50,593 nt of DNA from a virus, in IMG/VR virus record IMGVR_UViG_3300005841_000930, positions 1-50,593 of that record, one strand, 5' to 3'. The first letter of the stretch is position 1, and every line of letters begins with the position of its first letter. The position numbers and the translations under genes were made by a program. Below are positions 5,707 through 49,929 of the stretch, one piece after another. The notes beneath the pieces were generated by a model. It was not told where the DNA came from, did no database searches, and worked only from the letters and a program-made list of their open reading frames with translations.

Positions 5707-8700
5707 TTACGGTGTCTTTATAATCTTCGCCCCGGCGTTAAATGTTATACTTCCTGTACTGGTTGTTAAAGATGTAGCCACGGTTATAGTAGTAGAAGCT
5801 TTAACCCTTAACTGCCCCATAACCGCGTAATTGCTCTTACCAGTAGCACTTAGCCCCGCACTTGTAGCACCCATCGGAAAGAACACCGCCGTCCTGCTCA
5901 CGTTATCCTCTCCCGTATACGTAACCTGTAACTGTATAACATCTAAGCTTACCGCTGTTACAGTTACATACCCACTTACCTCAAAGCTGCTATCTGCGGC
6001 ACCAGTTGTATAGGTTACCACGTTGCCTGCCGTTGTTTGGCCTGTCAGGTTCCCCGTTGCCACAACCTTAGGCACGCTTAGTTGCTCCACTGTTAAGTCA
6101 CTCGGCGTACCACCCGCAACGCTCCCCTTAACCGTATTAGCTGCCATTGTTGCCAGGTTGGCGTTGGTTATGGCTGCGCTGCCGCTAAGGTTAGTATTGG
6201 TAAGACCGGTAATAGTGTTGCTGCCGGCGGCTATTGTTTTGTTGGTGAGGGTTTGTGATTCATCCAAATTCGCAACCGTTCTATTAGCTCCATTCCAAAA
6301 AATTAAATTTGTACCATTAACTGATATATCCCCTGTTCTTTGGCCACTTGTAGGCAAGTTTCCTGCGGGTATACTTAAGGATGGGTACGCTGTTGTAGCG
6401 CCAGCGAACAGCATAGTACCGTTGCGGGACTCGATTGTTATCGGGTGGCTTATTGTGACATTCGTGCCTGCGGTAACTGGGTTTACGGATAGATTGGGAT
6501 AATCGGTTACCACGACACCTGTATTAGAAGCGGCGTAAGTTTCTGATGCAATAGAAGACATTCGCAATATTGCGGTTGTACCGGTTGCGGTAACTGTATC
6601 GGTGTAGGTGCCTCCTAATGCCTGGTATACCGCCCCCGCTGTCGTAGGTGTACCACCGCGCGCCGACCCTGTTGCAATGCTAACTTTGCCAACGGCATCA
6701 ACTACTAAAAAGTTTCCTATAGCACCAGTATACCGGTTATTACTCATTGTTATGCCTGCGGGTGGTGTTCCATTAGCGTTTGTATTACTACCCGCAACTA
6801 CTGTTATAGCAGCCCCCTGCACATACGTACCAGTGGGGTTTTGCGCCTCAAACGAAATTGTACCTATAGAGTTGCCTGTGCTTATCTGCCCACCCGAAGC
6901 GCTTGCCCTGCGTAACCGGTGTATAGAGGCATCGGATAATGTTGCTGACCATGTTTCCTGTGTCCAACCAGTGCTAACGTTTGTACCGCTTACATTGCGC
7001 CCTAAAAGCGCACCCGTTTGCGGGGATAGTATAAGCCCAGGGCTTGAAAGCGAACTATCATATATGTATAACTGGCCGCCGGATATACGCTTTAAAGTAG
7101 TATACTGGTAAGGTGTAGGGCCGAACGCGCTGTATATCCTTTGTCCGGGTGTATCAAGTATGGGTATAGTGTAATTATTTTGTTCCCACTTCGATACCCC
7201 TTTAGCTACCTCCGTAGCACCTTCCAGCCCCGCTTGTTTATACCCTATGGCGCTGTAATGCACATCCCCGTTAAGGTAGCCGGGCATGTTTGGATAGTTC
7301 ACTGCATTCCAAAAAACTATCTTACATAGGCTGTCTGTTTGTGCATAGTTCTGTTGTTGCTGCCTAACCACGGCCTGCGTGGTATTATCGTTTATTCCTA
7401 TGCGAACGCCTATCCTCCATATATAAAAAGGCAGGTAAGGAGTGCCGTAATAATTATGGTACCGCTGCACCATAGCCGCGAGGGCATTGTAGTATGTCTG
7501 CGCGGTGATAACCCCCTGCCCTATTTTAAGCGCGTCCTGTTCGCCCTGGTCCCATAATATACCGCCTAATTGCACATCGTACCCCATTGCTGTAAGCTTT
7601 GCTATGGCACTATCAATCAGCCGTATACTACGGGCGTACAACGCACCTGAAGTGTCCCAGTTACCGCTAACGCCGTCATCAGCCTGCCAAGCCTGCGCGC
7701 TACCGCTAACCGCTGTCTGAACAAAGCAGATTGTGCGGCCTGTAATCTGGTTTAGCGTAACCGCAAATTGCGGCCACATAGCGTAAATAGTGTTTTGTGT
7801 TAACGGCACTACTGTATCGCCTGCCTGTTGGTACACCCACCCGATACCGGGCTTAGGTACCGGCATACTGTCCGGTGATGCATACGATTGCCCGTAAGCA
7901 TTGCTTTGTCCCGCTGGCACGTATAGCCATATAGTCTTTTTTACAGCAAGCCCTTTAACAAAGCTGGCTCCGGGGTCGAGATAAAGGCCATAAATCAATG
8001 GGCTGCCCAGTGCTGCGTTGGGGTAGGTTATAGTGTTGTTAAACTGAGATGTACCGTTAACGGTAAGTTTATACCCGGTACGTGTGGGGTTGGGGCCTAT
8101 AACACTATTTCCATCCGCGTTATAAACGGTAAAGGCGGCATTGGATGCACTATCGCCAATAATAACTGCGCCCGATGGATTGCAATGGCATGTATCTGTA
8201 TTATAAAGTATTGTGTCAGCTCTTATCTTCCCGCTAAAATAGCTATTGGCACTATTTACTACCGTGCTACCCCCGTCTACTTGCAACGCTATATTGCTCA
8301 CCCCGGTCTGCGCGCCAAAGCTGATACCGCCGGTATTCACACGTAGCCCTATAGCTGTTTTATTATCGACTAAAAAAGTACCACTGGGTGTAATGTTAAC
8401 AGCGGTAGCATTGTTACTCAAATCCAGCACCGGGGCAAATGTTTTATTCTGTGCGGTTATGGTTTGCGTGGTGGTTCTTGTAACGTAATCACCAGCGGCT
8501 ATATGGCCAAGGCTATCCGCGTTATCAACGGTACCTGTAGTGTCATTATCAAGCTGCTTCCAGCCCCCCGACAAATACATCCATAAATGGTCACCATCAT
8601 TGTAGATGTTGCCGTTTGTTTGGGTAAAAGACGGCGGCGTACTACTCACCCCAATGTTTAGCGGTACCTCATTAACAGACCCACCGGGAAAAGAAACAAT

Positions 8701-10422: not shown

Positions 10423-10430
10423 TATATTTG
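10423..10430 (+). promoter_or_regulatory. Candidate promoter (-7 box TATATTTG)
   Basis: A perfect match to the Bacteroidetes -7 box TAnnTTTG; the -33 TTTG is poor (TTTTT at 10403-10407). Transcription would start near 10437, just before the first hairpin of the structured RNA. Confidence 0.5.
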
Positions 10431-10436
10431 ACATAT

Positions 10437-10555
10437 AATTTACACCTGTAATGTTCACGGCATCAGGTTGTAATAAGTAAACTTTTTTAGATTTTTAAAT
10501 CTAAACAGGCCTTGTTAATACACACCGTGAATGTGTAAAGCAAGGTCTTTTTTTT
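10437..10555 (+). ncRNA. Structured kissing-loop RNA, copy 1
   Basis: About 119 nt. Hairpin 1: ACCTG (10444-10448) pairs with CAGGT (10464-10468), with ATG/CAT (10451-10453, 10461-10463) closing a 7-nt loop TTCACGG (10454-10460). Hairpin 2: TTTAGATTT and AAATCTAAA (10486-10505). Hairpin 3: GGCCTTG with CAAGGTC, then TACACA with TGTGTA, closing a 7-nt loop CCGTGAA (10525-10531), followed by T8. Loops 1 and 3 are perfect reverse complements. The T-tract ends 3 bases before the HNH start codon. The pairing is seen directly; expression and function are inferred. A second element at 28449-28555 has the same layout. Confidence 0.65.
10508..10555 (+). terminator. Terminator hairpin flush with the HNH start codon
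   Basis: A 7-bp lower stem (GGCCTTG with CAAGGTC), a 6-bp upper stem (TACACA with TGTGTA) and eight T at 10548-10555. Expression of the HNH gene from the upstream promoter would require read-through. Confidence 0.75.
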
Positions 10556-10558
10556 AAT

Positions 10559-11035
10559 ATGAAAATAATACAACTTACACAAGGGAAGTCTACAATTGTT
10601 GATGATGAAGATTATGAATTATTGATGCAGTTTAATTGGTGCGCTTTCAATCAGCGCGGAAAATGGTATGTAGGTAAACGACCAACAAAATACAGCCCAC
10701 ATCGTTATATGCATAGATTTTTACTTGAATTAAAAGATAGTAAAATACACGCAGACCATATAGATGGCGATGGGCTCAATAATCAAAAAATAAACTTAAG
10801 AATTTGCACACATTCACAAAATTCAAAAAATAAAAGCCCATCTAAAACGGGGACTTCTAAGTTTTTAGGTGTTTGTTTTTATAAAACAACAAACAGATGG
10901 CATGCCCAAATAAACGACAATAAAAAGGTTAAACATATAGGATATTTTAAAAATGAAATAGAAGCCGCAAAAGCTTATGATTTAAGAGCTAAGCAGGTTT
11001 TTGGTGAATTTGCGCACCTTAATTTCCCTATTTAG
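10559..11035 (+). CDS. HNH endonuclease with AP2 DNA-binding domain
   Basis: 158 aa, freestanding homing-type endonuclease. The HNH core is at about residues 50-95: YMHRFLLELK, then HADHIDGDGLNNQKINLR and NSKNKS, with the conserved His and Asn positions intact. An AP2 domain follows at about 100-158 (KFLGVCFYKTTNRWHAQI, HIGYFKNEIEAAKAYD, HLNFPI). It stands on the plus strand inside the minus-strand tail operon and its end overlaps the hub gene's end by 8 bases, as expected for an inserted mobile gene. Preceded by a structured RNA with a terminator only 3 bases before the ATG, so translation may be tightly restricted. Confidence 0.88.
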   Translation: MKIIQLTQGKSTIVDDEDYELLMQFNWCAFNQRGKWYVGKRPTKYSPHRYMHRFLLELKDSKIHADHIDGDGLNNQKINLRICTHSQNSKNKSPSKTGTSKFLGVCFYKTTNRWHAQINDNKKVKHIGYFKNEIEAAKAYDLRAKQVFGEFAHLNFPI

Positions 11036-24488: not shown

Positions 24489-26516
24489 TCAAGGATGATA
24501 AATATATTCCTTAGTTAGCAACGGCCTTACATAGTCAAAGTCTTTCAACCCCTGGTCTCGACCGTATAAATGAACTTCTATAGCTTTCAACGGGAGTCTT
24601 TCCAGCATATATAGGGTTGAGGATGAAACGGCGTGTATGAAATTGGCCTGCATAATAATATTAGTCCAATCCAACAAACTATATCCGGGCACCTGCCTTA
24701 ATTCAACCACAGGCAATCCCGTATGGCCCAGTTTCTTCACCTTTGCATTACCCGTGGTAACAGCACATCCAAACGTGCCAGCATGCAGTTCATACGCGCC
24801 ATGTGCGCCTACAACATCATGCAGTGCAGCCTCTTTTTTCAGATCCCTATCCCAACGCAGCCCGCGCCAAATATTAAAGTCCTCGTTAACCATAGCGTAT
24901 TTGCCGGTCATGGCATCGCTGCCATCGTTGGTTCTTATAGTATTCCACCGAAGTGGCAACACCTTGTAATTTCCGTACTTCCACCTATGCCAATGTTCCC
25001 GCTGGTTGTCATACTGCATAGTGAACGCACTCTTAGGCACAAACTGAATATCGGGGAAGTGTCTTTTTAGATCGGCGTGATACTCATCCGCTACGGGCCA
25101 TACAACATCGTGTCCCCTATCCATATATGTACGCGCAAGCTGTATTAAAAAGAATATATCCCCCAGTCCTAAAAACTGGTTGAATATGATGCCGTGTTTG
25201 GCAATGGCTGGGACAGGACGAGGTGGCTGCGCACTCACTACAGCCCGCTCCCCATGAAACCCAAACTGCCCGCTCCATTGCCCCGGCTGGTTATAGCCTT
25301 CAAAGCTGAACTGTTGCGCAGCTTCTACATGGGCGAACTTAATGCCATGCTCCCGCTCCAGTGCCGGCCGAAGTTCCCTGCAAATAACTGCATCCTCTGG
25401 ATGGGTAACGACAAGGTTAAGGCGGCTGGTTAGATCGAGTAGTTTTTTGGATCGCAAAGAGAACCCCCCATTTCCGACCCTGTTATTGCCGTACTCTGGT
25501 CCCCACGGTGCGCCTATGTAGTCGTACTGCAGCCAATCATGGTGCCAGGCGGTGGCGTTCTTAACGTAGCCGTCATGCTGCACTATAAGGGCGTGGCTGG
25601 TTTTGATATATTTGTGCAGGTCATTGATGATGAATGCGCTATAGGCCTCTTTGGAGCCGAGTCGGGGGATTTGATACATGGTAAGGTTGTGCAGCTTAGT
25701 TGGATTACCACTAACCCCGCTCGATATAATTACCACTGCACCAAAATGAATACTATCCTCGCTTTTTTCAACTGCTTTAACCGCCCTTTGTAAATCATCA
25801 TCCACACAAACCAACGTCACATCCCTTAATGTCAATGGCTTAAAGTCTTCCGCCTTATCCGGCTCCTCAATATGCCCCATACTACTGGCTGTGGCCTGGT
25901 GTTGCATAACAGACGGCTTCAAAGAGATTATCTTACGGTTGTCCTTCATGCTATTGATACAAGTAAGATGATCCCAGTTGCCTTTATTAGATATTGTATG
26001 CTCCAGTGCCGGCCGCATATACTTTTCATACTGTTCTTTATGCAGCACCATATTTATACCGCCTACACTTTCACGGAACACATACCCTGAACCACCTCCT
26101 ACGGCCTTGTGCCGTTCGCTGCCATCACGGTTACGGGTATTGCAGTTGAAGCCTGAGACTATGTTTTGCTGCCAGATGGCTTTTAATTGCACGAGGTCAT
26201 ACTGAAACATGTTGTTTACCAGCGCGTCATTGTCCAGGTTCATGGCGATGTCACAATGCAGCAGATCAAAGGCTAGATTATAACCATTGTACAATGCCTT
26301 TGCTATGCCACTGTTTTCTTCTGTGCGTATATGCAGTACTGTATAGCCCGGTACTGAAAACTCCCGTATTAGCTGTAGCGTAGTTTGATCTGTACTACAG
26401 TCATCTACTATTATAAACGTGGTATTGGGCAGATACTGGGCGTGACGAAGGGACTCTAAGCACTTGGCTGTTTCAACGGGTCGGTTAAAGGTGGTTATGA
26501 TTATAGCGTAGTGCAT
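24489..26516 (-). CDS. Three-domain glycosyltransferase
   Basis: 675 aa, apparently three units. Residues 1-215 are a GT2-type GT-A domain (IIITTFNRPVETAKCLESL, IIVDDCSTDQTT, DIAMNLDNDALV with a DxD-like motif). Residues about 240-420 match DUF5672 (VQHDGYVKNATAWHHDWLQY, YIGAPWGP, GNGGFSLRSKKLLDL). Residues about 435-675 look like a GT-B or GT9-type domain (FNQFLGLGDIFFLIQLARTY). The three activities may build a short glycan in sequence. No membrane segment is seen. Acceptor unknown; virion proteins or host glycans are both possible. Confidence 0.8.
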   Translation of the reverse strand: MHYAIIITTFNRPVETAKCLESLRHAQYLPNTTFIIVDDCSTDQTTLQLIREFSVPGYTVLHIRTEENSGIAKALYNGYNLAFDLLHCDIAMNLDNDALVNNMFQYDLVQLKAIWQQNIVSGFNCNTRNRDGSERHKAVGGGSGYVFRESVGGINMVLHKEQYEKYMRPALEHTISNKGNWDHLTCINSMKDNRKIISLKPSVMQHQATASSMGHIEEPDKAEDFKPLTLRDVTLVCVDDDLQRAVKAVEKSEDSIHFGAVVIISSGVSGNPTKLHNLTMYQIPRLGSKEAYSAFIINDLHKYIKTSHALIVQHDGYVKNATAWHHDWLQYDYIGAPWGPEYGNNRVGNGGFSLRSKKLLDLTSRLNLVVTHPEDAVICRELRPALEREHGIKFAHVEAAQQFSFEGYNQPGQWSGQFGFHGERAVVSAQPPRPVPAIAKHGIIFNQFLGLGDIFFLIQLARTYMDRGHDVVWPVADEYHADLKRHFPDIQFVPKSAFTMQYDNQREHWHRWKYGNYKVLPLRWNTIRTNDGSDAMTGKYAMVNEDFNIWRGLRWDRDLKKEAALHDVVGAHGAYELHAGTFGCAVTTGNAKVKKLGHTGLPVVELRQVPGYSLLDWTNIIMQANFIHAVSSSTLYMLERLPLKAIEVHLYGRDQGLKDFDYVRPLLTKEYIYHP

Positions 26517-26517
26517 G

Positions 26518-26730
26518 TTATAGTTTCACTTGTTCTTCGTAAATAAGAATGCAGTAGTGTTCACTGTCAATAGTGTAACAACTGATAGATACAGCTATCT
26601 TTTTAATAAAATAATATCCTGCAATAGGATGTAGTTCTTCATTTATATTATTCAAAAAGTTGCTCATCCTTTTTGCTAAGTCTGTCCCTGATGGGGCGCT
26701 AATGCTTATCACCTTCTGTTTGCTACTCAT
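26518..26730 (-). CDS. Small protein, unknown
   Basis: 70 aa, alpha-beta composition (VISISAPSGTDLAKRMSNF, then AGYYFIKKIAVSISCYTI). It sits 1 base before the three-domain glycosyltransferase and overlaps the stop of the upstream glycosyltransferase by 4 bases, so it is translated with both. No family is recognised. Confidence 0.6.
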   Translation of the reverse strand: MSSKQKVISISAPSGTDLAKRMSNFLNNINEELHPIAGYYFIKKIAVSISCYTIDSEHYCILIYEEQVKL

Positions 26731-27374
26731 AACCCTAACATTTCTTTTACTTGTTTAAAAATTTCAATTCTCCTTTCAAAATCAACACCCGGCAGGTGCA
26801 ACACCATATCACCCGGCTGCCAGTTTCCCTGTTCGTGCGTTGGCATGGGGTGGTTGCCTACTAACCTGTCCCAGTCATACATGTATTCTGTGTATAGGTA
26901 GCTGTTGATTGAGGGATGGGGGAGCTGGCACACACTACTGGATGGATACTGAATGATACTTTTAATAACAGACTGCTCCTCTGGGGCATCGAAATTATTA
27001 AGCACGTCATCGATAATATCCTTACTCCATTCAGTACTTTTTACTATCCAGCTACCGGCATTCAACCCGTGAACATCACTCGTAAAGTACATATCATAAG
27101 GCCATGATGATATAAAGTTTGTTACTGGTTGGTTGCCTGTTATCATCGCATCACAATCAAGTACCCATATATATTCAACCCTATCCATCAAATCTCGCAG
27201 CCTGTGCATTTTATGGTATCCGATTGGTTTTGTACTGGATTCAAAGGGATGCTTAATGAACACCTTAGCATACCCATGCTTATCACAGTACGCAGCGGCA
27301 ACGGGCAGCACTACATCCGCTAGCTGCTGCCATGATGGGGTGTAGTAGATGAAAAGGGCGACATTATTTACCAT
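26727..27374 (-). CDS. GT-A glycosyltransferase, GT34-like
   Basis: 215 aa. IGYHKMHRLRDLMDRVEYIW, then VLDCDAMITG (DxD metal site near residue 75) and the later VHGLNAGSWIVKSTEWSKD resemble galactosyl/mannosyltransferases of the GMA12/MNN10 type. A final HLPG near residue 195 fits the conserved C-terminal His-Gly. Third glycosyltransferase of the island. Confidence 0.75.
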   Translation of the reverse strand: MVNNVALFIYYTPSWQQLADVVLPVAAAYCDKHGYAKVFIKHPFESSTKPIGYHKMHRLRDLMDRVEYIWVLDCDAMITGNQPVTNFISSWPYDMYFTSDVHGLNAGSWIVKSTEWSKDIIDDVLNNFDAPEEQSVIKSIIQYPSSSVCQLPHPSINSYLYTEYMYDWDRLVGNHPMPTHEQGNWQPGDMVLHLPGVDFERRIEIFKQVKEMLGL

Positions 27375-27453
27375 GCTTAATATATTTAAATATCCCTTTA
27401 GTCATCTCTATTAATAACCCAATTAATGGTATTGACAGTATTATTAACCCCAT
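27364..27453 (-). CDS. 29-aa membrane microprotein
   Basis: MGLIILSIPLIGLLIEMTK plus a basic tail. The ATG lies 1 base after the stop of the previous gene and the end overlaps the next start by 11 bases, which fits a translated microgene, though the small size leaves doubt. Confidence 0.4.
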   Translation of the reverse strand: MGLIILSIPLIGLLIEMTKGIFKYIKHGK

Positions 27454-27454
27454 A

Positions 27455-27667
27455 TCATTGCTTTGTTTTACCAACCATTAACAAATCATAATCATAATTT
27501 CCTGGCGCAATAGAGTATCCGCCAAATTCACTATCATCCATCGGTTCAATCATCGCACACCCGTAAGAAGTAATAACAGCTTGCCGGCCTACCATTGTTT
27601 TAGGATACCAAACATTCTGCACAGGCTCTTTTGTAATACGTATGACTTTTATTTCGGTGGGGTACAT
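27455..27667 (-). CDS. Small protein, unknown
   Basis: 70 aa (VIRITKEPVQNVWYPKTMVG, AMIEPMDDSEFGGYSIAPG). Its ATG shares a base with the methyltransferase stop (TAATG), so translation is coupled. No family is recognised. Confidence 0.55.
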   Translation of the reverse strand: MYPTEIKVIRITKEPVQNVWYPKTMVGRQAVITSYGCAMIEPMDDSEFGGYSIAPGNYDYDLLMVGKTKQ

Positions 27668-28182
27668 TACTTTTCAATTATACAATAAAAACTACCGTTC
27701 ATATCATACCCTTCGCTAACAAAGAAACCCGTGCACAACCCAAGCATGTGCAGGTACTCGCAGTACTCGTTCATTATACCAGGCGATAAATAGTGAACAT
27801 GCTTTTTGTTACCCCATGCCCAATACTTCTGGTAATCAAAATTTGGCAGGTACAGACATATTAACCCGCCGGGCGCAATTTTTGTCAACCAGAACTCTAT
27901 AACGTCCTGAAATCGGCCTACAAAATGCTCCAGCATATGGCTTGATACAATAAAATCAACCATCTTGACGGGTAACCGCATCGCATGGTAGTTGTTTATT
28001 TCGGGGTCTATTATTTCGGCTCCAGGATACGCCCATTCAGGCCTGTTACAGCCTATATCGTACCCGCGCCAATCTTCTGGTATAAGCTTTTTAAACGTTG
28101 GTATAGCGAACTGCATGGCGTTGCCGTCGCTTTGCAAGGCAGGGTAAAATTTACCGTTGAATGTTATTGTTTTAATGGGCAT
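27667..28182 (-). CDS. SAM-dependent methyltransferase, class I
   Basis: 171 aa. A shortened Rossmann fold: motif I YDIGCNRPEW near residue 40, VDFIVSSHMLEHFVG near 75 (the VSSHMLEH pattern of Methyltransf_11-type enzymes) and APGGLICLYLPN near 103. It would methylate a small molecule or sugar; neighbouring glycosyltransferases suggest a methylated glycan. Confidence 0.8.
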   Translation of the reverse strand: MPIKTITFNGKFYPALQSDGNAMQFAIPTFKKLIPEDWRGYDIGCNRPEWAYPGAEIIDPEINNYHAMRLPVKMVDFIVSSHMLEHFVGRFQDVIEFWLTKIAPGGLICLYLPNFDYQKYWAWGNKKHVHYLSPGIMNEYCEYLHMLGLCTGFFVSEGYDMNGSFYCIIEK

Positions 28183-28184
28183 GG

Positions 28185-28448
28185 TTACAGCGCTTTAATG
28201 AGGTTAAGTATTTTGTATAATGATTTGTAGTAAACTTTCTCATCGTAAGATTCAACGGAGAAAGATCCTTCAACACCGTTTTTATGGTATTCAGCTTTAA
28301 TATTATGCTTTCCTTTTCTGACCATGACCGGCGCTTCAAATGCTGAATGCGCAAACTGTGGTTGGCCATCATTTATATAATAACTGGTGATTGTGCCAAA
28401 TTTTACCAGTTCGTTAAACAGCTGTATCGTACGTTCCTGTTGTGTCAT
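28185..28448 (-). CDS. First gene of the glycosylation island, unknown
   Basis: 87 aa from the ATG at 28448 (MTQQERTIQLFNELVKFGTI). The frame is open upstream to 28670, but that part crosses a terminator, a promoter and a structured RNA, so it is not coding. The ATG follows immediately after the seven-U tract of the RNA at 28449-28555; expression would need read-through. No family is recognised; SFSVESYDEKVYYKSL is strand-helix-like. Confidence 0.6.
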   Translation of the reverse strand: MTQQERTIQLFNELVKFGTITSYYINDGQPQFAHSAFEAPVMVRKGKHNIKAEYHKNGVEGSFSVESYDEKVYYKSLYKILNLIKAL

Positions 28449-28555
28449 AAAAAAACCGGTAGCACTTGTGGGAAAATGCAAACCGGCCTTGATTATTACT
28501 CGCCCTAAGGCGAAATAACCGTTAGCCTCGTTCCCACCAAAGATTAACGGTTTGT
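28449..28555 (-). ncRNA. Structured kissing-loop RNA, copy 2
   Basis: About 107 nt, minus strand. Hairpin 1: AACCGTTA (28545-28552) pairs with TAACGGTT (28517-28524); its 20-nt loop holds GTGGGAA (28531-28537). Hairpin 2: TCGCC TTAG GGCGA (28500-28513). Hairpin 3: CCGGT with ACCGG plus GCA with TGC, whose 12-nt loop holds TTCCCAC (28468-28474), then T7 (28455-28449). The two loop segments are perfect complements. The layout equals the RNA at 10437-10555 with different sequence. The ATG of the next gene follows the U-tract directly. Structure is read from the sequence; transcription and role are inferred. Confidence 0.65.
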
Positions 28556-28561
28556 CGTTAG

Positions 28562-28593
28562 CGAATGTAATACAACACATCGAAATAAACAAA
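28562..28593 (-). promoter_or_regulatory. Candidate promoter of kissing-loop RNA copy 2
   Basis: On the minus strand TTTG (28593-28590), a 20-base spacer and TACATTCG (28569-28562), one mismatch from TAnnTTTG. The predicted start, near 28555, falls directly before hairpin 1. Confidence 0.5.
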
Positions 28594-28594
28594 T

Positions 28595-28621
28595 AAAAAA
28601 AGGAGCATCTTTCGACACTCC
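28595..28621 (-). terminator. Rho-independent terminator after the capsid gene
   Basis: Minus strand GGAGTGTC, GAAA tetraloop, GATGCTCC (8 bp with two G-U pairs) and seven T. It ends the head operon 33 bases after the capsid stop. Confidence 0.85.
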
Positions 28622-38172: not shown

Positions 38173-38376
38173 CGGTTTACACAGTATACACTACTTTTCC
38201 TTCCTCTTTCTGGAAAATACAAAATATATAAAGTACTACTTTGAAATATTATTGTTTCCAGTATTTATATAAAATATAGTGTAAACTGTAAACTATATAC
38301 ATTAAGTATATGAAAACCAATATACTATACGGTTTACACTACGGTTTACACTGAACCTGCCTGTGTAAACCGTATA
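38173..38376. other. GTTTACAC repeat cluster, candidate origin or operator
   Basis: The 230-base A/T-rich gap 38116-38345 and the end of the primase gene hold repeated (G)GTTTACAC in both directions: 38173-38182, 38279-38286 (inverted), 38287-38293 (inverted, partial), 38326-38339, 38340-38351 and 38363-38376 (inverted). TATACGGTTTACAC (38326-38339) and its exact reverse complement (38363-38376) form a 14-bp inverted repeat. Iteron-like spacing beside a primase-helicase suggests an origin, but binding of a regulator fits as well. Confidence 0.5.
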
Positions 38377-40472
38377 ACCTCATAAACTCGTTTAGTACTA
38401 CCCTTGTCTTTTTTGTGTACTTGCTTAAACCCTAATCTTTGCAACTCCTGCCCTATCTTATTGATAGATAGTTTTTGATTACTTTTAAACTCTAAGTCAA
38501 CCTTTATATCCGTTGCTGTCATTTCTTCGCCCCTGGCATCGCCAGGAACTTTATACCATCGAGATAACAATTCGTACTCAGCGCTATACGCCTGAAACTC
38601 TGAAGTTTTTTCTGTCAATTCTGCAATATCATCATGGGTTAACCGCCAATTAAAACCAGATTTATAAAGGTGATATGCCTCAATAAACAAGTCGGTTTTG
38701 TCTATTTTATTATAATCAGAATGATTTATATTCAGTACTGGCACCGGTATTAGCCTCCGGTTGCCGGTAGGGTCGTTAAGTATAGCACTTTCATTAGTGG
38801 TGCCGCAAAGTACTGCAATCCTTTGCAGGTCAACGTTACTTCTGCCATAAGGCTCCCTAAGTGAAAAAACCTGTTTAGATAGCGTGCTCTTTAAAACTAA
38901 TTCGTCCTTCTTGCTTTTATTTCCGCACTCATCATCTAATAAAACAAGCTTTTGACACATCAAAATATTTAGGTCGGTATCTTTAATTCCCTGGGAAATA
39001 TCTGTAAAATAAGAACGTAGTTCAACTGGTAACATTCGCCTGAAAAACTCTGTTTTACCGGTGCCGTGAACGTGCCCCGAAAGTATGATCATTAGCGGGG
39101 AATGCTCCCCGTGTATGCTGGCAATAATACCTACAAGCCATTTTTTACCAAATTTCCTGGTATATTCATAATCCCTGGTTAATATGCAATCCCAAAAACT
39201 ATCAATAGTTCCTGAAGGTGTTCTGTCTCTATTACTTGCTATAAACTCATGAAAAGGGTTGTATTTAGGTGTGAAATTGCTGTGAATCATTTTCTCAACT
39301 ATGGTATAGTCAAGCTTTTCCATAACCTTTTTGGATGCTATAAAAAGACTGTTATAGTCATCCTGTTCCATTTGCCGGCCATTATTTTCCACCTGCCTGG
39401 TTATCTCATTTTTACGCAAGGAATAATTAAACCGCAGCCACTGCTCAAGCTGGGTAAGCAAACCTTCCTCTGCCTCTTCTATGTTATTTTCGTAAACCTG
39501 TGTTACTATATTTTCGGTATCATCTACCCCGTCAAACTGCTTTAAATTTTTTTGTATACTTTCTGCAGGCAGGCCTGATCGCTTTCCGTTTACCGCGGCG
39601 GTAAGTATTCTTTTTGTTGTTTGGGAGTAAGTTTGTATGCCAGCCTGCTTGCAGTAATAATAAAATGTGGCTATAGTAGCCTGCTTGCTTCCCTTTGCCT
39701 TAAGGCAGTTAGTGTATTGCTTATCGCAGGCCGTCGCATCATATTTATAGCTATTGGCAGAAACAACATGAAAATAAGAACGACCTTGCTCCCCAAACTT
39801 ATCTACCAATGCAAAGCCAATCCTAAGCCAATCATGGTAATTACTGCACAAATCAAGGTTACGGCGCTGTATGTCCTGTAAAATTTCTTCAAAATCTGTT
39901 TGGGCAAAAACAACCCGATCTACTTTTTTAGGGGCTTTATTTTTAGGGTATTGGGTGAATTTTTGCGATTTTGTGTTAATATATATATCCGGGTCAAATG
40001 ATATAAACCTGGCCCTTGACGGGTTTACGCTGGTTGGATCGCATGGCTCCCCGTAATTATTGTAAAAGTATTCCGACAATCCTGCGTGAGCATCCCGGTG
40101 TTTGTCACCATTTATTTTAACTATTACGCAAAGGCCCCGGCCAGAAATAGAAACGAATGCAGCATAAACGTACGGGTCACAACAAACAATTGATTTAAAT
40201 TCCTGAACGTCCTTTATATTGTCAAAATCCATCCCTATAAAACCAGAATGCTCTTTTATACCATTATCCGAATGCTCTGTGAAAAGGCCGGATAAAGTGA
40301 CGTAAGGAACTTTCTTTTTAGCTTCTTTTCTTTTCACCTCATCCATTGTCCGTATGGGTAAAACAAAATCCTGCCATTTACCGTCCTGAATATATTGCAG
40401 GAAAATATCCATAGATATGTCCTGGCTTCGTTTCGTCTCAAAAATATGTGGGTACAAACTTATGCTGGCCAT
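38346..40472 (-). CDS. Primase-helicase (BT4734-like / VirE type)
   Basis: 708 aa. Residues about 1-190 are a BT4734-like primase-associated domain (HSGFIGMDFDNIKDVQEFKS, YAAFVSISGRGLCVIVKING). About 195-275 look like PriCT-2 (NYHDWLRIGFALVDKFGEQG). About 400-600 are a VirE/VapE helicase with Walker A GHVHGTGKTEFFRR near 460 and Walker B KLVLLDDE near 507. A winged-helix end follows. It probably primes and unwinds phage DNA. Its 3' end carries two of the GTTTACAC repeats. It overlaps the helicase gene upstream by 13 bases. Confidence 0.9.
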   Translation of the reverse strand: MASISLYPHIFETKRSQDISMDIFLQYIQDGKWQDFVLPIRTMDEVKRKEAKKKVPYVTLSGLFTEHSDNGIKEHSGFIGMDFDNIKDVQEFKSIVCCDPYVYAAFVSISGRGLCVIVKINGDKHRDAHAGLSEYFYNNYGEPCDPTSVNPSRARFISFDPDIYINTKSQKFTQYPKNKAPKKVDRVVFAQTDFEEILQDIQRRNLDLCSNYHDWLRIGFALVDKFGEQGRSYFHVVSANSYKYDATACDKQYTNCLKAKGSKQATIATFYYYCKQAGIQTYSQTTKRILTAAVNGKRSGLPAESIQKNLKQFDGVDDTENIVTQVYENNIEEAEEGLLTQLEQWLRFNYSLRKNEITRQVENNGRQMEQDDYNSLFIASKKVMEKLDYTIVEKMIHSNFTPKYNPFHEFIASNRDRTPSGTIDSFWDCILTRDYEYTRKFGKKWLVGIIASIHGEHSPLMIILSGHVHGTGKTEFFRRMLPVELRSYFTDISQGIKDTDLNILMCQKLVLLDDECGNKSKKDELVLKSTLSKQVFSLREPYGRSNVDLQRIAVLCGTTNESAILNDPTGNRRLIPVPVLNINHSDYNKIDKTDLFIEAYHLYKSGFNWRLTHDDIAELTEKTSEFQAYSAEYELLSRWYKVPGDARGEEMTATDIKVDLEFKSNQKLSINKIGQELQRLGFKQVHKKDKGSTKRVYEVIRFTQAGSV

Positions 40473-41986
40473 GTAAACGTTTTACTAAGTTGTTCAATAA
40501 GGTGTTTTTTGGCAGTATCTTTATGCCATTGGTTGAATTTTTTATTTTTTATTTTACACCATTCATTAGCTTTTTCAAAATACAAATCCATTAATTGGGC
40601 CGCCTGGTCCTCGGAAAGTATTTTTGATTTTAACCTGTACTTTGCCTGCGTCGCTATGTTGTTGCCAATCTGGAAAAAAGTGTAATATTCCTTGTAGTTT
40701 TGGTTTTTTTCAACAAGCTGGGCCACATCGTGGTTTTTAACAAGCAAAACAAATTCGGGCGGTATCGCATCATAAGTCTCCTCTTTCGGCGGGAATACAT
40801 ACCCGCAAAACTTACACGTTGTAGCTGATGCCGGAATGATAGCCTCGCATTCGGGGCATTCTTTAGATGGCGCCACGCCCTGCTTATCTTTTGGTTTTGC
40901 CGGGTTATGGAATAAATCTTGCCAATTGCGAGGGTCACTCCAGTCCCCAAGGCCACCACCTAATGCGTTATCGCCCATATCAACTATGATAAATTTATCC
41001 TTGCCAGGGAACGTGCGCCCGGCCCTGCCGGTCATTTGAAGCCACAAAGGCAACGAAAGAACTGATTTGTTTACAATGCACCCCAATAAAGACGGTTCGT
41101 CAAAACCGGTAGTTAATATGCCCACATTATTTATTATAGCATCAGGCGTATCCCGTAACCATCGCAATGCTTCTCGCCTATATTCAGGCGTTGCATTTCC
41201 ATCGAGGTGCCTGCTATTATACCCAGCATCAATAAAAGCATCGTTAACTAATTTACTATGAGAAATATTACAGTTAAATATAATGGTTTTTTTGCCTTTT
41301 AAAAACTTTTCGTAAGCCGTTACGGTGTTTTTAACATGCTTAGTTTTACTATATTCCTCGCTCATTTGCTTTTCATCAAATTCTCCACGGACTACCTGCA
41401 AATCGCCACGATTTACATTAAGTTGCCTATGTGTTTCATTTTGACATAGGCTGCCCTCCGATATAAGTTCAGGTATATCTATGCCGCAAACAATATCCTT
41501 GTAGTAATTTTTTAATGGGTCTTTTTTGGTGGCAGAAATAGGCGTAGCCGTAAACCCAATAATTAACTTCTTTTCAAAAAAAGACATTATTTTTTTGTAG
41601 TTACCTAAATGGGCCTCATCAATTATTATTAGGCCAAATTCAGGCAAAAAACCAACTTTTTCTATTCGCCTGTGTACGGTTTCGCACATGCCAACATACA
41701 CCTTATGTTCGTGCGAAAGTTTACGGGCCTCAGGTGTTATTGGCGCGCTGTTTAAATTGTACCAATCGTACAATGTTCTACGTGTCTGCATTAAAAGCTC
41801 TTCTCTATGCACAAGTATTAAAACACGTTGATTTGATTTTTTAATATACCTGTCTGCAATAGTAGCAAACGTAACTGTTTTGCCTCCGCCAGTGGCAAGC
41901 TGGTATATTACAGGTGATAAGCCCTGAGAAAGTTTTAGGGCTACATCTCTTGTTCCCTTTTCCTGGTAAGGACGTAGTTCTGGCAT
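40460..41986 (-). CDS. SF2 DEAD/DEAH helicase with zinc ribbon
   Basis: 508 aa. Motif I ATGGGKT (near residue 32), motif II DEAH near 124, GFTATP near 144 and a C-terminal RecA domain ending QMTGRAGR. A zinc ribbon follows (ECPECEAI, then TCKFCGYVFPP, near 375-400). Type III restriction/UvrB-like translocases of phages have this layout and help open or remodel replication DNA. A TATATTTG box lies about 130 bases upstream. Confidence 0.92.
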   Translation of the reverse strand: MPELRPYQEKGTRDVALKLSQGLSPVIYQLATGGGKTVTFATIADRYIKKSNQRVLILVHREELLMQTRRTLYDWYNLNSAPITPEARKLSHEHKVYVGMCETVHRRIEKVGFLPEFGLIIIDEAHLGNYKKIMSFFEKKLIIGFTATPISATKKDPLKNYYKDIVCGIDIPELISEGSLCQNETHRQLNVNRGDLQVVRGEFDEKQMSEEYSKTKHVKNTVTAYEKFLKGKKTIIFNCNISHSKLVNDAFIDAGYNSRHLDGNATPEYRREALRWLRDTPDAIINNVGILTTGFDEPSLLGCIVNKSVLSLPLWLQMTGRAGRTFPGKDKFIIVDMGDNALGGGLGDWSDPRNWQDLFHNPAKPKDKQGVAPSKECPECEAIIPASATTCKFCGYVFPPKEETYDAIPPEFVLLVKNHDVAQLVEKNQNYKEYYTFFQIGNNIATQAKYRLKSKILSEDQAAQLMDLYFEKANEWCKIKNKKFNQWHKDTAKKHLIEQLSKTFTWPA

Positions 41987-42113
41987 AAAAATAAATTGCC
42001 CAGGAAAAAGAAGGGTAACAGCCCTCTTAACCCGAGCAATGGAAAAAATTGTGCACCTAATCCCTTATCCTGTATCTGTTACCTACAAGTTAAGGCATTG
42101 CAATAATGTTAAA

Positions 42114-42121
42114 CAAATATA
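42114..42121 (-). promoter_or_regulatory. Candidate promoter (-7 box) for the helicase operon
   Basis: Minus-strand TATATTTG matches TAnnTTTG exactly; a TTTG upstream is only 16 bases away, shorter than usual. It lies in the 218-base gap 41987-42204, which otherwise holds a GGGT-type hairpin (42014-42034) and no gene I can support. Confidence 0.45.
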
Positions 42122-49844: not shown

Positions 49845-49929
49845 TGCGCCCGGCGAGGTTCGAACTCGCAATCCTCAAATGGAAACAGAATTTTAAGTCC
49901 TGCGTGTCTGCCAGTTCCACCACGGGCGC
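49845..49929 (-). tRNA. tRNA-Leu (UAA)
   Basis: 85 nt. Acceptor GCGCCCG pairs with CGGGCGC, discriminator A; anticodon arm CAGGA CTTAAAA TTCTG gives UAA; T-arm GCGAG TTCGAAC CTCGC; a long variable arm marks a class II (Leu) tRNA. CCA is not encoded. It may offset a codon-use difference between phage and host; the leading arms look intact. TTTTTT follows 4 bases after its end. Confidence 0.95.

Follow-up and report, generated by a model that had tools for sequence, protein, structure and literature searches.

A structured RNA leader, in which the loop of a first hairpin (H1) is complementary to the loop of a terminator hairpin lying just before a start codon, recurs in a group of phages that are all uncultured, and appears, from the clean covariation of its sequences, to represent an undescribed class of structured RNA for gene control. 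With somewhat better than even confidence, and in the absence of transcript, termination, or expression data, the element is read here as a cis-acting 5' leader attenuator, in which the terminator is clamped by the kissing loop and the gene is held down. Three copies (A, B, and C) are found in the window, that is, the whole stretch of 50,593 nucleotides analyzed, which is an IMG/VR virus record (IMGVR_UViG_3300005841_000930). A host among the Bacteroidota is inferred from two features: a capsid protein similar to that of Flavobacterium and Cellulophaga phages, and promoter boxes of the TAnnTTTG type, which is the Bacteroidota promoter consensus. Members of the class stand before genes for replication and modification and before HNH genes, in phages of a phylum in which the control of phage genes has been little studied. 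The window also contains a tRNA gene (49845–49929, minus strand).

The original prediction placed an RNA with kissing loops at 28449–28555 on the minus strand, and this is confirmed by the sequence and by the fold (z = −3.9 against dinucleotide shuffles; z = −4.1 for the terminator alone). When both strands of the window were scanned for hairpin and terminator pairs with complementary loops, copies A, B, and C were recovered, all with scores of at least 49, and none of 100 windows subjected to dinucleotide shuffling reached 44. The RNA of copy A spans 28560–28449 (minus strand), and consists of H1, a small hairpin, the terminator, and seven U, followed by the ATG. Its promoter (28562–28593; the start site is inferred) is formed by a TTTG at 28593–28590 and, 20 nt downstream, a −7-like box, TACATTCG, at 28569–28562, which has one mismatch to TAnnTTTG and matches the position of the exact boxes in other instances when the leaders are compared. 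As RNA, H1 (28517–28552), with its 7-nt loop GUGGGAA, reads AACCGUUA..CUUUG[GUGGGAA]CGAGG.UAACGGUU, and the small middle hairpin, UCGCC/GGCGA, lies at 28494–28514. The intrinsic terminator (28449–28490) has the loop UUCCCAC; its hairpin runs from 28490 to 28452, the last of the seven U is at 28449, and the ATG is at 28448, so the claimed direct junction of the U run with the start codon holds. Sequence and folding support all three hairpins, and the scan supports H1 and the terminator.

Right after copy A lies an ORF of 87 amino acids (28185–28448, minus strand), for which a family search found no match, and which heads a methyltransferase-like/glycosyltransferase island. Upstream, an ordinary terminator with a 4-nt loop (28596–28621, minus strand), recognized in the sequence, follows the major capsid gene, and this predicted terminator separates copy A from upstream transcription. 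The island behind the capsid gene (24489–28182) includes a methyltransferase-like protein, a GMA12/MNN10-type glycosyltransferase, and a GT2-DUF5672 fusion. In the same place, a related contig (L047) has glycosyltransferase and methyltransferase-like genes, together with a kissing-loop candidate without a clear promoter box.

Copy B, which had been predicted at 10437–10555, is real (10444–10555, plus strand; fold z = −4.4 against dinucleotide shuffles), with the loop UUCACGG in H1 (10441–10472) and CCGUGAA in the terminator (10507–10555), which is followed by a U run, both supported by sequence, folding, and the scan. The claimed fusion to the start codon is only indirect in this copy, where AAU intervenes between the U run and the ATG (10559) of an annotated HNH-AP2 endonuclease gene (10559–11035, plus strand), which is opposite in strand to its neighbors. 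The third instance that had been sought was found at 42095–41987 (minus strand), upstream of the helicase-primase genes. In copy C, identified by the scan and the sequence, H1 (42063–42095) has the loop GGUAACAG, and the terminator (41987–42040) has the loop CUGUUACC and a U-rich tail that reaches the ATG (41986) of the DNA helicase gene (40460–41986, minus strand); the next gene encodes the primase (38346–40472, minus strand). In a promoter-anchored search, copies B (10423–10430) and C (42114–42121) both present the −7 box TATATTTG, an exact TAnnTTTG.

Approximately 40 further distinct instances were found beyond the window, in related viral contigs. The layout is, with few exceptions, a promoter (a −7 box TAnnTTTG or near), H1, a linker, the terminator, and the ATG, mostly over 95–128 nt, and the distance from the −7 box to the ATG falls within this range in 29 of the 30 leaders examined, the exception being the leader without a box in L047. 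In the same 30 leaders, the spacing from loop to loop is 46–71 nt, without helical phasing. The complementarity between the H1 and terminator loops ends at the loop edges, and the gap between the terminator and the ATG is short across unrelated genes. The middle hairpin, which the original prediction took to be a constant part, is present in copy A and optional in the class, with no clear counterpart in copy C or in two of the helicase leaders (L052 and L239).

The genes downstream include HNH endonucleases, replication initiators, helicase-primases, methyltransferases, and small ORFs. Among the HNH relatives, located by gene homology, the leader stands immediately before the ATG in 18 loci, and the loops are complementary in all the leaders of this type (18/18). 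The leader is retained, with other loops, by all six close relatives of the helicase (L052, L053, and L236–L239), also located by gene homology, and by the relatives of the replication initiator (a PHROG 11233 match, E = 4e-31, whose gene neighbors a leader-bearing unit in one phage) in all 14 loci that include the gene start, these being found by gene homology alone. In full records, more copies precede DNA methyltransferase genes of two types, as well as ORFs of 87, 95, 101, and 140 amino acids, and in L315 and L317, the leader heads a unit of a small ORF, helicase, and primase. The idea that the leader is specific to HNH genes was thus ruled out, and the claim that the copies precede inserted cassettes stands only in part, given that several of the targets are core replication genes (helicase-primase and replication initiator). 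Two helicase relatives share a variant with a branched terminator, in which the pairing is GGUGGAAUC/GAUUCCACC in L236 and GUGAGAAC/GUUCUCAC in L237, the letters differing on both sides. This terminator is three-way (at approximately 1115–1230 in L236, and likewise in L237 and L238), and the segment that partners H1 lies in the junction. Two related leader lineages (HNH and initiator) account for most of the instances, and the independent origins are therefore fewer than the instances themselves; the same plan is followed, with unrelated sequences, by the window copies, the helicase leaders, and L262.

A near-identical leader is found before an HNH gene in one locus (L081) and before a replication initiator in another (L320), which indicates, from the sequences, that the leader is exchanged between genes as a module whose boundary is the ATG. 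A module that moves in this way is both testable and reusable. L276 (10829–10105) has two leaders in series: one precedes an HNH gene, and the other precedes the replication initiator that immediately follows this gene. No second leader separates the two genes in L078 and L174, where the end of the HNH gene abuts the initiator.

The HNH leaders (n = 16) were aligned by sequence alone, and their loop segments fell in register. The loop–loop helix of seven pairs has standard pairs in 98.1% of the cells, in comparison with 70% in shuffles and 25–50% when slid, and its covariation score is 0.717, against 0.196 shuffled and at most 0.168 slid. Changes on both sides are observed at six of the seven pairs (30 cells) and changes on one side at none, so the predicted retention of the loop pairing in related phages is upheld. 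The variable loop positions accept two to four types of pair. The stems also covary, with G-U tolerated (cells paired: 92.6% in H1 and 75.7% in the terminator), and the 105 paired cells of the loop helix include no G-U. Over 20 distinct loop types, native pairs average 7.15 complementary bases, against 3.30 when swapped, and none of 100,000 permutations attains the observed sum of complementarity. This last test is partly biased, as some of the members were found by their pairing, unlike the sets of leaders found by gene homology, which are free of detection bias. A promoter-anchored detector recovered 35 sites in the full records of related phages (including a few alternative ATGs or overlapping records) and none after shuffling, and shuffled sequence is thus not a source of similar loop pairs. 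The loop–loop pairing is, to judge from these substitutions, under selection, and the promoter box, the two hairpins, the terminator, the strict complementarity of the loops, the position at the start codon, and the recurrence across genes are demonstrated at the level of the sequence. A real RNA class, in which order, length, and fusion to the start codon are kept while the sequence changes, is supported by the HNH covariation and the 14 initiator leaders.

The absence of G-U from the loop helix would also be expected of an inverted repeat in duplex DNA, and the HNH genes are mobile, so the loops might instead be inverted half-sites for a DNA-binding protein, or the hairpins might act as single-stranded DNA in the mobility of the HNH cassette. 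Such a DNA-level role is very improbable, given that the repeats always lie in hairpin loops, the stems of both hairpins tolerating G-U, that their spacing is unphased, and that fixed replication genes also have the element at their head. Nor do the loops derive from the inverted duplication of a single hairpin, an origin ruled out by the different stem sequences of H1 and the terminator. A leader-peptide ORF (MSKLFLFT in L078) was not conserved, and was dropped.

How the element relates to the gene downstream is a separate question. A complete promoter, a strong terminator, and a compact fold would equally suit a stand-alone phage small RNA of approximately 100 nt that acts in trans on the host or the phage, with the next gene merely behind it; the unit shared by L081 and L320 could be a mobile small RNA gene, and the prophage RNA IsrK serves both as a short small RNA and as a read-through mRNA (PMC4825925). 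This possibility has a minor but appreciable likelihood, and is weakened by the tight and recurring junction with the start codons of unrelated genes, and by the fact that no seed sequence in single-stranded regions other than the loops is conserved. Of the 22 rows in which a strong terminator of these phages has an ATG no more than 25 nt away, 18 are this element. For three of the genes downstream, no other promoter is visible: the gene behind copy B is opposite in strand to its neighbors, copy A follows the capsid-gene terminator, and the gene upstream of the L317 leader is divergent, so the promoter of the leader is probably the only one nearby for the gene behind. Among cultured relatives (Flavobacterium and Cellulophaga phages), the helicase operon has a promoter of this kind as its own, followed by a leader that is short and plain, and the hairpins therefore have the look of a module inserted into a 5' UTR. 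The junction with the start codon, the lack of another visible promoter, the promoter of the cultured relatives, and the L081/L320 exchange are the reasons for preferring the cis-acting attenuator, and control of the downstream gene through the leader is well supported by the arrangement of the sequences. The terminator lies between the promoter and the first start codon of the unit, as in a transcription attenuator, and its G+C-rich hairpin and U run are those of an intrinsic terminator, with termination itself being inferred. The retention of complementary hairpin loops by compensatory change satisfies the definition of a kissing-loop RNA.

Under the attenuator reading, a host-type promoter would start the RNA, and H1, the first hairpin, would fold at once. 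Approximately 45–70 nt later, the terminator hairpin would be made, with a loop of 6–9 nt complementary to that of H1, and the kiss between the two loops would clamp the terminator shut directly before the start codon. By default, transcription would end after approximately 95–115 nt, and in the RNAs that are read through, the clamped hairpin would occupy the ribosome landing site, so that the gene behind (HNH nuclease, replication initiator, helicase-primase, methyltransferase, or glycosylation island) may remain low or delayed until the clamp opens. It is inferred that termination is usual, that it is reinforced by the kiss, and that its relief comes from a signal encoded by the phage or the host; the route by which the clamp is released and any trans action of the short RNA are also inferences, and no conserved protein- or ligand-binding sequence that would explain the switching was found in the leaders. 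A terminator loop clamped by an upstream hairpin would be a simple control design.

The two stems and the kiss can coexist because the complementarity ends at the loop edges, and the simplest reading is therefore that the kiss stabilizes the terminator and the block of the start region. The same pairing could work in the opposite direction, delaying the terminator (as an anti-terminator) or opening the start region, like the repZ pseudoknot of the I-complex plasmids. When the RNA is cut just after the terminator loop, that is, without the 3' arm of the terminator, folding often favors the opening of H1 to a nested loop–loop helix (18 of 30 leaders), and an anti-terminator role is not excluded by these models; for ColIb-P9 repZ, a loop pseudoknot before a replication gene is known, as far as the reference list of PMC10724649 indicates. 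A positive switch is nevertheless rather unlikely, since the complementarity stops short of the terminator stem, which an anti-terminator would need, and both stems are conserved with covariation of their own.

Covariation cannot tell intramolecular from intermolecular pairing. It is conceivable, though only as a speculative extension that is itself unlikely, that the terminated leaders act in trans and that the loop types (which include GUGGAAG, GUAGGAG, GUAGCAG, GCACUAC, GUGCAAG, and CUAGACA) behave like incompatibility groups, so that the RNA from one phage copy would sense the number of genome copies or, in a co-infecting phage whose loop is the same, would block the replication genes. A specificity system of this kind, if true, would explain why the loops are the fastest-changing parts and yet strictly Watson-Crick. 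It would also account for the recurrence of one loop type on different genes, and for replication genes being the most frequent of the fixed targets. The strict and fast-changing pairing makes it possible to test whether leader RNAs serve as phage copy-number or superinfection signals. The orthogonality of loops within a genome was not upheld as a rule, with two HNH leaders in one genome (G015) having nearly the same loop; the loops differ in most other genomes, which chance alone also predicts with approximately ten loop types.

Rfam searches of the window and 11 related loci returned only tRNAs, and those of three leader stretches at a permissive E-value gave only scores far below the gathering threshold. 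The conserved ligand-binding nucleotides expected of a riboswitch are absent: the loop positions vary among the HNH leaders, which share no sequence with the window copies. No exact DNA matches were found in GenBank phages, no element at the stretches examined in cultured Flavobacterium, Cellulophaga, and Parabacteroides phages with helicase relatives, and no detector match in more distant helicase relatives (36–41% identity). A scan of GTDB genomes with the HNH protein recovered only two distant relatives, neither from the Bacteroidota, and a literature search, restricted to open-licence papers without preprints, found no description of such a leader RNA.

In phage P4, the replication genes are gated by premature termination through the CI RNA/seqA. 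IsrK of the prophage Gifsy-1 is a short terminated RNA with a read-through mRNA whose structure blocks translation (PMC4825925). Both are, like the present leader, phage RNAs with their own promoter and terminator just before a gene, but neither is described with an upstream hairpin that kisses the terminator loop, and they do not recur as a module on many genes. The control of plasmid replication by kissing loops, as in the pT181 repC attenuator and the ColIb-P9 and IncK repZ leaders (PMC10724649 and its references), is similar in the leader of a replication gene, the loop–loop pairing, the attenuation or pseudoknot switch, and loop sequences that vary between relatives. The plasmid RNAs depend on an antisense RNA transcribed from the other strand, whereas in the phage leader (opposite-strand promoters were not searched for systematically) the two complementary loops lie on the same sense RNA, and the terminator loop itself is the pairing partner. 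In the T4-type homing endonucleases I-TevI and mobE, RNA structure at the start codon also holds down expression, but this is a single hairpin over the Shine-Dalgarno site, bypassed from a late promoter, with no terminator or kissing loop, and is not a module shared with replication genes (PMC2988022). By the features tested, the phage leader belongs to none of these systems, because it has no Rfam match, both partners are on one sense RNA, and the terminator loop is one of them.

Some loci depart from the plan. In L286 (6794–6922), a cluster of tandem palindromes around CCTACTAATTTAGTAGGG is unrelated to the leader. The HNH leaders of L080 (approximately 5895–5985) and L178 (upstream of 6001) lack the kissing hairpin; in both, a 5' segment of 11 nt is complementary to the interior of the terminator loop (GUCAGAGCUAA/UUAGCUCUGAC in L080, and GCGAUUCAGUU/AACUGGAUCGC, with one U-G, in L178), which is possibly a sister pseudoknot design.
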